A stretch of 64,000 nt of DNA from the NCBI RefSeq assembly GCF_004366815.1, contig NZ_SORI01000001.1, forward strand, positions 124,001 to 188,000, given 5' to 3'. Position 1 is the first letter of the stretch, and each line of letters opens with the position of its first letter. Shown here piece by piece: positions 6,034 to 57,235 of this stretch. The DNA comes from Aminivibrio pyruvatiphilus. Its GTDB lineage: Bacteria; Synergistota; Synergistia; Synergistales; Aminobacteriaceae. The translations under genes were made by a program, and so were the position numbers. The notes beneath the pieces are model-generated. The model worked only from the letters and a program-made list of their open reading frames with translations. It was not told the origin of the DNA and did not search any database.

Positions 6034-6075
6034 TCGATTCTCTCCTCTCGTCCATTCCTATTTTCCAGCATGGAA

Positions 6076-6205
6076 GCTGAGGGAGGGTTGCCGGGCACAG
6101 CGCCCGGGGCAGGAAACCGACAGGGATGTCGGTTTCAGGCGCAGTTGTCACGGATGACAATGTGCGCCGTCGGCCCAAGCGAGCACCGGTAACGCTCCCC
6201 GCAGC
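6076..6205 (+). repeat. Dispersed foldback repeat, copy A (double-hairpin centre)
   Basis: One of four copies in the window. The left arm (from about 6076, containing GCCGGGCACAGCGCCCGG) and the right arm (6171-6205, with CCCAAGCGAGCACCGG) are imperfectly self-complementary. The centre at 6113-6168 holds two small hairpins: GAAACCGACA pairing with TGTCGGTTTC, and TTGTCA pairing with TGACAA. The same centre occurs in copy C at 26.3 kb. It fills most of the gap between the divergent lipoate ligase and metallo-hydrolase genes. Function unknown; it is non-coding. Confidence 0.85.
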
Positions 6206-6291
6206 CCGGTGGTTCTGATGAAAAAACCTCTTGCCAGAAAGGCCGGCAGGCTTCATTATACAAAATATCCTGCAATGGAGGTGGTGCCGAA

Positions 6292-13674: not shown

Positions 13675-13742
13675 GGGGTCTCCTTCGGATAAACGTGCCG
13701 GTCCAAAACTGCGGGTATCTTTCTATGGCCGGCGTTTTCCCA

Positions 13743-13843
13743 AAATCCGCAGCTTTTCCCGGCAGAGGGAGTGTCGCCGGGAAAAGCGCCCGGGCCGACG
13801 GCCCAAGCGAGCACCGGTGACGCTCCCCGCTGCCTGCGGATTT
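13743..13843 (+). repeat. Dispersed foldback repeat, copy B (core only)
   Basis: This 101-bp copy is the simplest form. The outer 10 bases AAATCCGCAG (13743-13752) and CTGCGGATTT (13834-13843) are perfect inverted repeats. The inner arms CAGAGGGAGTGTCGCCGG and CCGGTGACGCTCCCCGCTG pair with a few mismatches, so the whole unit can fold into one long hairpin. It has no central insert. It lies just upstream of the MATE gene promoter. Confidence 0.88.
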
Positions 13844-13860
13844 GGATTCTCTGTTTCGGC

Positions 13861-26320: not shown

Positions 26321-26448
26321 CAGGGGGGAGCGTCCCCGGTGCTCGCTTGGGCCGCCGGCGCACATTGTCTTCCATGACAACTGCGCCTGAAACCGACGTC
26401 CCTGTCGGTTTCCCGGCCCGGGCGCAGCGCCCGGCGACTCTCCCTCTG
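26321..26448 (-). repeat. Dispersed foldback repeat, copy C (double-hairpin centre, inverted)
   Basis: Read on the minus strand, this 128-bp copy matches copy A almost throughout: left arm CAGAGGGAGAGTCGCCGGG, the GAAACCGACA/TGTCGGTTTC-type hairpin (here with ACGTCGG), the TTGTCA hairpin, then CCCAAGCGAGCACCGG and the closing arm. Relative to copy A there are scattered substitutions, including inside loops. It lies between the racemase gene and the D-aminoacylase gene. Confidence 0.85.
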
Positions 26449-53679: not shown

Positions 53680-55350
53680 GTGGTCTTCCCTGAAGAGCGT
53701 ATTGCCTGCCTCGAGCGGCGCCTTCGGGTTCTTGAAGAGACGAACGCCTTCCTGTGGAAGGAAAAAAGCTTTGCCGTGGAAAACCTGGAATCGGCGGTCA
53801 CCCTTGGCAGCTTCGACACGAGCCTCAACCGTCTCGACGATCCCCGGCCCATCCTCGAGGAAATTCTCGCCAGGGCGGCGACCATCCTGCCCTTCAAATC
53901 CGCCGCAGTATATCTTGTCACGGAAGATTCCTCCTTCACCCAGGCCCTGTGTTCCCCTCATGGACAGGGAGCGGAACTGGAGGAGCTCGTTTCCCGGAGG
54001 ATCGAAGACCGTACGTTCGCCTGGGCTCTCAAGAGAAGAAAATCAGTCCTGTCCGGCGTATCCGGACCTGAACCCCTCCATCTCCTCCACGCCCTGTCCA
54101 CCATATCCCGGACCAGGGGAATGTTCGTCGGCATTCTCGAAGGAGAGTGGCAGCACCTGTCGGATTATTCCCTTTCCCTTCTCTCGGTGCTGCTCTCCGC
54201 CGCCGCCGGAGCGCTGGAGAGCTTCGAGCTGTACCGGAATCTCAGGCGGCTGAACAGGGACCTTGCGGATAGGATGTCCCAGCTTGAGGAATCCCGGAGA
54301 GAACTGGAGGAATACCGGAAATTCCTCGAGCAGCAGGTGGAGCAGAGGACAAGGGAACTCTCCCGGGCGAACGAGGAGATGAAGATGGAGATCGCAGAGC
54401 GGATGCGGGCCGAGGAGGATCTCCGCTCGAGCGAGGAGATGCTCAGGCTCGCCGTGGAGGGCATGGGGGACGGAGTCTGGATCTGGAACAGAACGACCGG
54501 CAAGACCGATCTCTCCCCTCTTTCAGCTGAGATCCTGTGCGGAGGTGCTGAAGATCCGGCGTTCTGCATCTCGAAATCGGCGTCTGCCGAAGCCTGGGAG
54601 CGGATTATCCACGAGGAAGACCGGGAACGGCTTTCCAGGAGAAAGGAGCGGTGTTTCGCCGGGGACGCGGCGGCGTACAGTGCGGAATACCGGGTTATGG
54701 GAAAGGAAGGACAGGAACGGTGGATCCTCGAGCGGGGAAGGGTGGTCCGGAAGGACGGGGATGGGCGGCCTCTCACAATTGCCGGTACCCACTCGGACAT
54801 CACCGGAAGAAAAAAACTGGAGGACCACATCCGTTTCCAGGCCACTCACGATTTCCTCACCGGGCTGCCGAACCGCTTTCTCTTCGAGGACCGGCTCACC
54901 CAGGTTCTGGCCCGGGCGAAGAGGCAGAAGAGAAAGGCCGCCCTTTTCTTCGTGGACATGGACGATTTCAAGAAAGTGAATGACCGGTACGGACATCCTG
55001 CGGGTGATGCCGTCCTAAAGGAGGCGGGCGCCCGCATTGTTTCCTGCGTGCGGGAAATGGACACCGTCTGCAGGCTGGGAGGGGACGAGTTCACCGTCAT
55101 TCTGCCGGACATCGGCGGCGCAGGCGAGGCTGAAATGGTAGCCGGCCGGATCCTTGAAGCCTTCGGAGAGCCTTTTTTTCTCGGGGGAGAGAGCGTATCC
55201 CTCTCTCTGTCAGTGGGGATAGGAATCTTCCCGGACCACGGCGAGACCATGGAGCAGCTTCTGGTCAACGCCGACGAAGCTATGTACAGGACCAAGGGAC
55301 AGGGGAAGAAGATCTGCTTCCTCCCTCCCCGGAACACGTTTGCCCCCTGA
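53680..55350 (+). CDS. Diguanylate cyclase with GAF-like, coiled-coil, PAS and GGDEF domains
   Basis: The 556-residue cytosolic protein has a GAF-like sensor (about 45-185), a long coiled coil (190-255), a PAS domain (258-380, ending ITGRKKLED) and a GGDEF domain (385-550) with an intact GGDEF near 467. The inhibitory site REMD stands five residues before it. It should make cyclic di-GMP from two GTP and be product-inhibited. The start is GTG at 53680, one base after the HDOD stop. No EAL domain. The input ligand is not predictable. Confidence 0.92.
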   Translation: MVFPEERIACLERRLRVLEETNAFLWKEKSFAVENLESAVTLGSFDTSLNRLDDPRPILEEILARAATILPFKSAAVYLVTEDSSFTQALCSPHGQGAELEELVSRRIEDRTFAWALKRRKSVLSGVSGPEPLHLLHALSTISRTRGMFVGILEGEWQHLSDYSLSLLSVLLSAAAGALESFELYRNLRRLNRDLADRMSQLEESRRELEEYRKFLEQQVEQRTRELSRANEEMKMEIAERMRAEEDLRSSEEMLRLAVEGMGDGVWIWNRTTGKTDLSPLSAEILCGGAEDPAFCISKSASAEAWERIIHEEDRERLSRRKERCFAGDAAAYSAEYRVMGKEGQERWILERGRVVRKDGDGRPLTIAGTHSDITGRKKLEDHIRFQATHDFLTGLPNRFLFEDRLTQVLARAKRQKRKAALFFVDMDDFKKVNDRYGHPAGDAVLKEAGARIVSCVREMDTVCRLGGDEFTVILPDIGGAGEAEMVAGRILEAFGEPFFLGGESVSLSLSVGIGIFPDHGETMEQLLVNADEAMYRTKGQGKKICFLPPRNTFAP

Positions 55351-55373
55351 CGAACACCCTCTCTTCTGACCCC

Positions 55374-55815
55374 TAAATCCGCAGCTTCTCCTGGCAGAGG
55401 GAGTGTCGCCGGGCATAAGGTGAATTCGCCCCGCCAGGGGCGAAGAGAGGATCCCCTGGGGGATAAGGTGAATTCGCCCCGCCAGGGGCGAAGAGAGGAT
55501 CCCCTGGGGGATAAGGTGAATTCGCCCCGCCAGGGGCGAAGAGAGGATCCCCTGGGGGATAAGGTGAATTCGCCCCGCCAGGGGCGAAGAGAGGATCCCC
55601 TGGGGGATAAGGTGAATTCGCCCCGCCAGGGGCGAAGAGAGGATCCCCCCTGGGGGATAAGGTGAATTCGCCCCGCCAGGGGCGAAGAGAGGATCCCCTG
55701 GGGGATAAGGTGAATTCGACCCGTCAGGGTCGAAGAGATCATCCCCTGGGGGACAGCGCCCGGGCCGGGCGGCCCAAGCGAGCACCGGTGACGCTCCCCG
55801 CTGCCTGCGGATTTA
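55374..55815 (+). repeat. Dispersed foldback repeat, copy D, expanded by a 48-bp tandem array
   Basis: The ends TAAATCCGCAG and CTGCGGATTTA are perfect inverted repeats, and the arms match copy B. In place of the short centre there are seven tandem units (55415-55752). This element fills most of the 604-bp gap from 55351 to 55954, the largest stretch without a gene in the window; the rest of the gap has only a ribosome site for the next gene. Non-coding: frames through it change where one unit is 50 bp long. Confidence 0.9.
55415..55752 (+). repeat. Seven tandem units of 48 bp
   Basis: Units begin with ATAAGGTGAATTCGC at 55415, 55463, 55511, 55559, 55607, 55657 and 55705. Units 1-4 and 6 are identical. 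Unit 5 has two extra C (50 bp). Unit 7 differs at a few positions. Each unit holds two hairpins: CGCCCC-GCCA-GGGGCG and ATCCCC-TG-GGGGAT (the second spans the unit junction). In unit 7 the first becomes CGACCC-GTCA-GGGTCG, a paired change that keeps the stem. Confidence 0.95.
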
Positions 55816-55954
55816 GGTGACCGGTGTGCCGTTGACCTTTTTCCCGTTTTCCGCAACAATACTTCCCGAACATCCGGCAAGCGGAGGTTCTGGAGGCCTG
55901 TGCTTTCCCGCCGGTGACCGGTCCGGAACCGGTGAAAAAAGGAGGCGATTCCGG

Positions 55955-57235
55955 GTGAGGGTATTCCTTCCCTACGGCAGTTCCCACATAACCTGCGAAA
56001 TACCTGATTCCAGGCTTCGGGCGATCCTCTCCCCGAAGCTTCCGGAAGCGGAGGAGAAGACGGGAGAAGCGATCGTCAGAGCGTCTCTCGCCCGTCCCGC
56101 CGGCAGCCCTCCTCTCAGGGAGCTCGCCGGAGGAAAGAAGAACGTGGTCATTCTTTCCAGCGATCATACCCGTCCCGTCCCCAGCGCCGTCATCATGCCC
56201 CTTCTCCTGGAGGAAATCCGCGCCGGGAATCCCGGGGCCGACATCACCATACTCGTCGCCACGGGATGCCACAGGAGCACAACGGAGGACGAACTCGAGG
56301 AGAGGTACGGCACGGAAATTGTCCGCAGCGTTCGGATCGTGGTCCACGACAGCCTGGACGAGAACAGCCTCGTATCCGTGGGCACCCTGCCCTCGGGAGG
56401 AGAACTGGTTCTCAACCGCCTCGCAGTGGAGGCGGACCTTCTCGTTGCGGAAGGATTCATCGAACCCCACTTTTTTGCCGGCTTCTCCGGCGGACGGAAG
56501 AGCGTTCTTCCCGGCGTGGCGGCCTACAGGACGGTCCTGGCCAACCACTGCGCCGAGTTCATCGCCTCCCCCGGGGCGAGGACGGGGATCCTCGAGGGAA
56601 ACCCTATCCACGAAGACATGGTCTACGCCGCCAGGAAAGCGGGGCTCGCCTTCATCTGCAACGTGGTCCTCGACCCGCAGAAGCGCATCACCGCCGCCTT
56701 CAGCGGGGACATGGAGAAAGCCCACGAAGAGGGGTGCGCCTTCCTGAGCCGTTTAGCAAAGGTGCAGGCTGTGCCTGCGGACATCGTGATCACGGGCAAC
56801 GGCGGATATCCCCTCGACCAGAACATCTACCAGGCAGTGAAGAGCATGACCGCTGCCGAGGCCTCCTGCAGGCCGGGAGGGATCATCATCGAGGCGGCGG
56901 AATGCAGGGACGGTCACGGAGGAGAGGCTTTCTACCATGCCTTCCGGGATATACCCACCGCCCGGGGGGTGCTGGACAGCATTCTCGCCAGGGGGAGGGA
57001 CAGCACCGAACCGGACCAGTGGGAGATCCAGATTTTCGCCAGGATCCTCATGAACCATACCGTCATTCTGGTGACGTCGGCGCCGAGGGAGACGGCGGAG
57101 TACATGAACATGAAATGGGCTCCCTCCCTGCAGGATGCCCTTGCGCTTGCTGAGGAGATCCTGGGTGACGGGAACGCCGCCGTGACGGTTATCCCCGACG
57201 GGGTGTCGGTTATCGTGGATACCCCGGGGAAGTGA
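55955..57235 (+). CDS. LarA-like nickel-dependent 2-hydroxyacid racemase
   Basis: The 426-residue protein has every key LarA position at a constant offset of two from the Lactobacillus enzyme: D70 and R73 (SSDHTRP), H106 (CHR), H172 (EPHFFAGFSGG), K182 (RKSVLPG, the lysine that holds the nickel-pincer nucleotide) and H198. It should racemise or epimerise a 2-hydroxyacid. Genes for cofactor synthesis (larB, larC, larE) are not in the window. The GTG at 55955 has AAAGGAGGCG upstream. The neighbouring aldonate genes suggest a sugar-acid substrate rather than lactate. Confidence 0.88.
   Translation: MRVFLPYGSSHITCEIPDSRLRAILSPKLPEAEEKTGEAIVRASLARPAGSPPLRELAGGKKNVVILSSDHTRPVPSAVIMPLLLEEIRAGNPGADITILVATGCHRSTTEDELEERYGTEIVRSVRIVVHDSLDENSLVSVGTLPSGGELVLNRLAVEADLLVAEGFIEPHFFAGFSGGRKSVLPGVAAYRTVLANHCAEFIASPGARTGILEGNPIHEDMVYAARKAGLAFICNVVLDPQKRITAAFSGDMEKAHEEGCAFLSRLAKVQAVPADIVITGNGGYPLDQNIYQAVKSMTAAEASCRPGGIIIEAAECRDGHGGEAFYHAFRDIPTARGVLDSILARGRDSTEPDQWEIQIFARILMNHTVILVTSAPRETAEYMNMKWAPSLQDALALAEEILGDGNAAVTVIPDGVSVIVDTPGK

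Follow-up and report, generated by a model that had tools for sequence, protein, structure and literature searches.

How did an array of seven near-identical two-hairpin units arise between two genes of Aminivibrio pyruvatiphilus, and does a stem of its last unit, changed on both sides at once, betray selection for a folded structure in the array itself? The window (the whole stretch of 64,000 nucleotides that was analysed) contains the array, several relatives of the element that carries it and the neighbouring genes.

The array and its host element

Tandem Repeats Finder detected a period of 48 with 7.1 copies and 96% matches at 55411–55753, far beyond chance. With TAAGGTG set as the start of each unit, the array is divided as follows (positions of the window).

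55416–55753, + strand: tandem array of seven 48-bp two-hairpin units (unit 5 has 50 bp), from sequence and Tandem Repeats Finder
55416–55463, 55464–55511, 55512–55559 and 55560–55607: units 1 to 4
55608–55657, + strand: unit 5, 50 nt, with two extra C in the second stem (P2)
55658–55705: unit 6
55706–55753, + strand: unit 7, with CGACCC..GGGTCG in the first stem (P1), loop GTCA and linker ATC; its right side merges into the MITE core

An earlier note on this DNA had described seven head-to-tail units with a different seventh, which the sequence and Tandem Repeats Finder confirm, except that the array ends at 55753 and not at 55752. Units 1–4 and 6 are identical to each other, and the linker of units 1–6 is AGG. 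Five positions set unit 7 apart (C14A, G25T, C19T in the loop, G34T and G35C in the linker). C14A and G25T are mutual pairing partners that turn a C-G pair of P1 into A-T, so that the two-sided change reported for the first stem is indeed present; five substitutions placed at random would leave all 13 pairs intact and produce a pair compensated on both sides with a probability of about 0.009. The second stem, said to be kept, is so only in its TCCCC/GGGGA part, common to all units, but not in its outer A-T pair, which exists only in units 1–6, where the T is supplied by the next unit; unit 7 reads ATCCCC..GGGGAC. A CRISPR array is ruled out, as the units abut and no unique spacers are found.

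The P1 segment CCAGGGG can also pair with the P2 segment CCCCTGG, and the lowest-energy RNA fold of a single unit of the 1–6 type is this cross-pairing rather than the two drawn hairpins. For unit 7 and for the reverse strand, the predicted fold consists of the two hairpins as drawn.

The number of units is uncertain because the perfect period-48 stretch covers 234 bp, which is hard for short reads, and it lies in an assembly (3.35 Mb, 62 contigs) that breaks at IS copies. It is nevertheless very improbable that the array length is an assembly artefact: unit 5 (with its additional CC) and unit 7 are distinct, which a pure artefact would not create, and they imply that at least three unit types are present.

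The array had been placed inside a foldback repeat (copy D), and this repeat proved to be a complete MITE, inserted in the following context.

53680–55350, + strand: upstream gene, encoding a GGDEF/PAS diguanylate-cyclase-type protein
55367–55371, unstranded: left target site duplication TGACC, perfect, 5 bp
55372–55817, + strand: array-bearing MITE (copy D, L001), 446 bp, long imperfect foldback without both ANGGAY hairpins
55372–55384, + strand (G000:C1:179372-179384): left terminal inverted repeat CCTAAATCCGCAG, 13 bp
55805–55817, − strand (G000:C1:179805-179817): right terminal inverted repeat CCTAAATCCGCAG, 13 bp
55818–55822, unstranded: right target site duplication TGACC, perfect, 5 bp
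55832–55860, + strand: promoter-like TTGACC-17-AACAAT of the downstream gene, present at the empty site of the sister species
55955–57235, + strand: larA-type nickel-dependent lactate racemase gene

The MITE lies between the GGDEF gene and the larA promoter, 15 bp upstream of TTGACC-17-AACAAT; for larA, the family alignment and a GGAGG site point to the GTG at 55955 as the likely start. The sister species (G001) has both neighbouring genes and the promoter-like site but no MITE, and this empty site indicates that the insertion is lineage-specific. No GC stem with a T run behind it, as in an intrinsic terminator, was found in 55200–56100.

A modular MITE family and the probable growth of the array

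Copy D has terminal inverted repeats and a duplication of fixed length, carries no transposase, belongs to a multi-copy family and shares its ends with an autonomous element, which are the features that define a MITE. The genome studied here (G000) contains at least 60 partial matches to the element, and at least 57 elements with paired ends were catalogued in G000–G003 (this genome and three congeners). Perfect 5-bp duplications flank 38 of the 57, the safer count, given that the catalogue includes some poor-ended entries that reflect chance or decay. Three other copies lie in the window.

6069–6212, + strand: copy A, carrying a TwoAYGGAY RNA (RF01731, 45.2 bits)
13740–13846, + strand: copy B, a 107-bp MITE without unit and without ANGGAY hairpins
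26321–26446, − strand: copy C, a core with both GGA-loop hairpins and decayed ends

Many G000 contigs end inside a longer element sharing the MITE ends (IS ends CCTAAATCCGCA stand at contig ends), and a fuller IS copy in G002 has ends that match the MITE and a 5-bp duplication, CGGTC. Its transposase matches the IS1380 profile NF033539 of NCBIfam (E 3.8e-51, 174 bits, just under the 180-bit cut-off) and Pfam DDE_Tnp_1_4 (PF13701; 63.8 bits, above the cut-off). These similarities suggest that the MITE family is mobilised in trans by an IS1380 transposase, and copy D was apparently moved by such an element. At two loci (L143 about 1300–1720 and L375:172–2100), MITE and IS copies adjoin, as if the ends attracted new insertions.

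The interior of these MITEs is modular. A second optional insert of about 42 bp (GGCAGGCAACCGGCGAACGCAGGGAGCCGAGTTGATCGCC) stands between the two GGA hairpins in L002, L007, L011, L043, L051 and most G002 copies, and a third hairpin lies within the 48-bp unit in L011, L222 and L225. As for the unit itself, MITE copies have 0, 1 or 7. Insert-bearing copies hold one unit, located in the loop of the arm GCCGGGC/GCGCCCGG, and such single-unit copies occur in three species; among the matches listed, only copy D has more than one, a second array being possible in G002. The duplicated segment corresponds exactly to the P1+P2 insert (TAAGGTG..GGGGGA), and the surrounding arm is unchanged. L009 and L010 are one-unit relatives of the short type of copy D, i.e. 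the type without the two GGA-loop hairpins. The identity of units 1–6 indicates that they expanded recently, which bears out the earlier claim of a young array. The array is probably, at odds of about three to one, a lineage-specific tandem amplification (from one to seven units, as assembled) of a module that is normally single within a modular MITE.

Taken as a whole, the history of the locus could be viewed as follows. A one-unit MITE would have inserted upstream of larA; its hairpin module would then have been duplicated, and units 1–6 would have expanded recently. As suggested by the junction, this expansion may have proceeded by replication slippage or by short-repeat recombination, aided by the hairpins. 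The inner module would fold by itself and the number of units would leave the outer foldback undisturbed, as proposed for boxB of the BOX elements, a module whose predicted fold touches the ends at few points, so that its copy number may vary (PMC3049150). Unit 7, beside the right arm, would represent another module lineage, which either is older or came from another copy. For the array itself, neutrality is most likely: it would do no more than lengthen a hairpin, transcribed or acting as a spacer, between the GGDEF gene and larA.

The two-sided change and the structure of the unit family

Single units with the CGACCC..GGGTCG allele are found at C8 and C22 of G000 and at G001:C21. The A-T allele is carried by copies L009, L011 and L053, and each of the three traits of unit 7 (GACCC..GGGTC, the GTCA loop and the ATC linker) is also present in other MITE copies. 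L009 and L053 have the A-T allele together with the same linker, so that this allele may have arisen once. As judged from these copies, the two-sided change of unit 7 goes back to an older variant within the module family and is not peculiar to the array. This does not support its origin within the array, which the earlier note had assumed, nor the proposal that unit 7 is the older template of the other units: since single units with the allele exist elsewhere in G000 and in the sister species, there is no need to take unit 7 for the template, and exchange between copies explains it equally well because its other traits also occur singly elsewhere.

Two processes that are both compatible with the amplification of a single module have to be weighed for unit 7 and its allele. 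Recombination or gene conversion with a MITE copy already carrying the A-T allele, by which the array would join two module lineages, is conceivable at somewhat less than even odds: the allele, the loop and the linker of unit 7 are all found in other copies while units 1–6 have AGG as linker, but no copy combines the three traits and no donor was found. Rather unlikely, and relevant to the origin of the allele only, is a purely mutational one, as template switching from one arm of a perfect hairpin to the other can write a two-sided change in one event, without selection, and is reported to fix stems (PMC8794818). Among the distinct stems compared, the pair concerned is C-G in 17, A-T in 3, T-G in 1 and C-A in 2, without any A-G or C-T intermediate. 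One-sided changes in other genomes, which had been named as evidence against selection, are thus found in part, T-G in one relative stem sequence and C-A in two, all from G002. The passage from C-G to A-T takes two transversions with no wobble intermediate; as no mismatched intermediate is seen either, selection and template switching could each account for unit 7. Template switching fits less well with one P2 pair that shows TA, TG (wobble) and CG states in the genus, the stepwise path expected under selection, and it leaves unexplained that stand-alone units pair through wholly different stem sequences and keep unpaired flanks. A two-sided stem change within a repeat, classically read as a mark of selection, need not, then, reflect local selection: it may be an older allele of the family or the product of one mutation event.

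Selection for a folded structure, the main claim of the earlier note, fares differently at the two scales compared: stems are conserved across the module family, but the signal within the genus is weak. There, two-sided changes occur at 1 of 11 pairs and 219 of 500 shuffles reach as many, in a count whose P2 columns are one off and whose P2 rows are to be disregarded. After addition of seven stand-alone relatives of the unit (from G036, G002, G067, G013 and the viral contigs L209, L252 and L292), 8 of the 11 pairs show two-sided changes with 95.5% of cells paired, and none of 500 shuffles is as high, although the P1 part is inflated, as stand-alone units were found by patterns, the viral ones being filtered for P1 pairing and the Synergistota ones picked partly by eye; P2 was not used in choosing L252, L292 and G067. 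Slid versions of this extended alignment come nowhere near the observed covariation. A covariance model built from the extended set matched G000:C9:50689-50733 (46.5 bits), outside the training set, and an apparent counterpart of this unit in G001:C20 (44.2 bits); the stems of the two differ and stay paired, which indicates that the structure of the module is conserved. Weak matches to the model (below about 25 bits) occur across the phylum. The unpaired AAGGTGAA and AAGAGA flanks are conserved in the unit family and, together with the stepwise P2 states, favour selection acting on the family. The case for selection on structure, drawn from comparison of sequences, is convincing only when the distant relatives of the unit are added. 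Selection acting on a hairpin, of RNA or of single-stranded DNA, could maintain the structure of the family, possibly together with arm-to-arm template switching.

Sequences related to the unit (AAGGTGAATT-stem-AAGAGAAGG-stem) stand alone at L045/L128, L127, L133, L046:1037-1091, L209:8817-8861, L252:1853-1897, L292:1518-1562(-), L368 (about 290–334) and L370 (about 304–348), some of them inside IS, RAYT-like or phage genes. The loci holding stand-alone units gave no relevant Rfam match at E up to 1, and neither did similar sequences from Rhodobacterales. The latter (GGTGAATTCGGCCC..GGGCCGAAGAGGGGGGC) score only 10 to 22 bits with the model, their flanks being fixed by the search pattern; intergenic AAATATCC(C/T)CGGGGGGTGAATTCGGCCC..GGGCCGAAGAGGGGGGC sequences of this order (L101, L103, L104, L105, L108, L119 and L120) resemble the unit and may be convergent.

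RNA modules and comparison with known systems

Sister MITE copies match the TwoAYGGAY RNA family (RF01731, clan CL00106) at 41–45 bits (copy A above the gathering score of 43, the others at 41–43.5) and have its two GGA hairpin loops. The array-bearing copy D has no match to RF01731 and no ANGGAY in L001. TwoAYGGAY-carrying copies include those at 6069–6212 and 26321–26446 of the window as well as L023, L024, L027, L028, L030, L035 and L039 (about 1390–1660). Their first hairpin loop, ACARGGATGT, resembles the CsrA consensus, and this genome encodes CsrA. The GGA hairpins of TwoAYGGAY RNA have been proposed to bind this protein (PMC4333381). In another genus of the order (G120, G124, G136, G047), RF01731 matches lie in foldback elements of 246–250 bp with ends GGGNANCTCTAAAAAC, some with TTAA or ATAA duplications, so that this RNA family is associated with MITEs of two different end types. 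Elements of this second, unrelated kind are found at L302–L306, L312–L314, L320 and L322–L327. In addition, two inverted TwoAYGGAY matches 2 kb apart (G041:C2:75716-75783(-) and 77697-77764(+), L321) perhaps flank a mobile element. No mention of the carriage of TwoAYGGAY by MITEs was found in open-licence papers.

The array might itself be selected as RNA, for example as a multi-site sponge for an RNA-binding protein or as a stabilising or attenuating leader between the GGDEF gene and larA, the number of units setting the strength. The paired stems and conserved unpaired flanks of the unit family, the wobble state among those of the P2 pair, the insertion directly upstream of a conserved promoter-like site and the proposed CsrA-binding RNA in related MITEs (PMC4333381) agree with such a role, which is nevertheless improbable: copy D lacks both ANGGAY hairpins, the array shows no sign of recurrence (a single one among the matches listed), no terminator-like site is present and the stems of units 1–6 compete with cross-pairing. 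Strand asymmetry, counted as G-U versus A-C pairs as a test of the transcribed strand, gave 18 G-U and 6 A-C in the outer foldback of seven core copies, and 14 A-C and 3 G-U, mostly from decayed copies, in P1 of the units, so that the two counts point in opposite directions; the one-sided P1 changes, mostly A-C and not G-U on the array strand, may speak against an RNA role.

A broader and still doubtful proposal is that Synergistota MITEs act as vehicles for structured RNA modules: TwoAYGGAY RNAs would be spread by MITEs whose ends are of two or more unrelated types, and the 48-bp unit (AAGGUGAAUU-stem-AAGAGA-NN-stem) would be a separate conserved RNA module, also found alone in other genera and in viral contigs. 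If so, the array would be an experiment of nature in which one regulatory RNA module is multiplied. Independently of this proposal, the MITE copies tie TwoAYGGAY, an RNA family of unknown function, to mobile elements; this offers a concrete and testable account of why the family is so scattered, and it may connect the family with CsrA.

Several known systems share part of this organisation with the amplified MITE. The sister copies reach or approach the gathering score of TwoAYGGAY RNA, but copy D has lost both GGA-loop hairpins that most relatives have. Like MITEs of IS1380-family insertion sequences, the element has the terminal repeats of an IS1380-type element of the genus and, as that element does, duplicates 5 bp of its target; unlike them, its interior consists of hairpin modules unrelated to the transposase gene. 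REP/BIME palindromic repeats are likewise short, conserved and dispersed hairpins, and one relative of the unit that stands alone is embedded in a RAYT-like gene of G013, whereas the unit studied here travels within a DDE-transposase MITE. A REP/RAYT origin was rejected: despite this one unit in a RAYT-like gene, G000 showed no dispersed REP family of the unit. The closest parallel is the BOX elements of Streptococcus (boxA-(boxB)n-boxC), which are also small mobile foldbacks with fixed ends and an inner hairpin module of similar size that is absent, single or tandemly repeated. The element differs from them in sequence, phylum, IS1380-type ends, the single copy with an array and a core related to TwoAYGGAY RNA. 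In its organisation it behaves as a BOX element does, membership in that family not being claimed, and it extends the BOX-like type of modular MITE to a phylum distant from Streptococcus.
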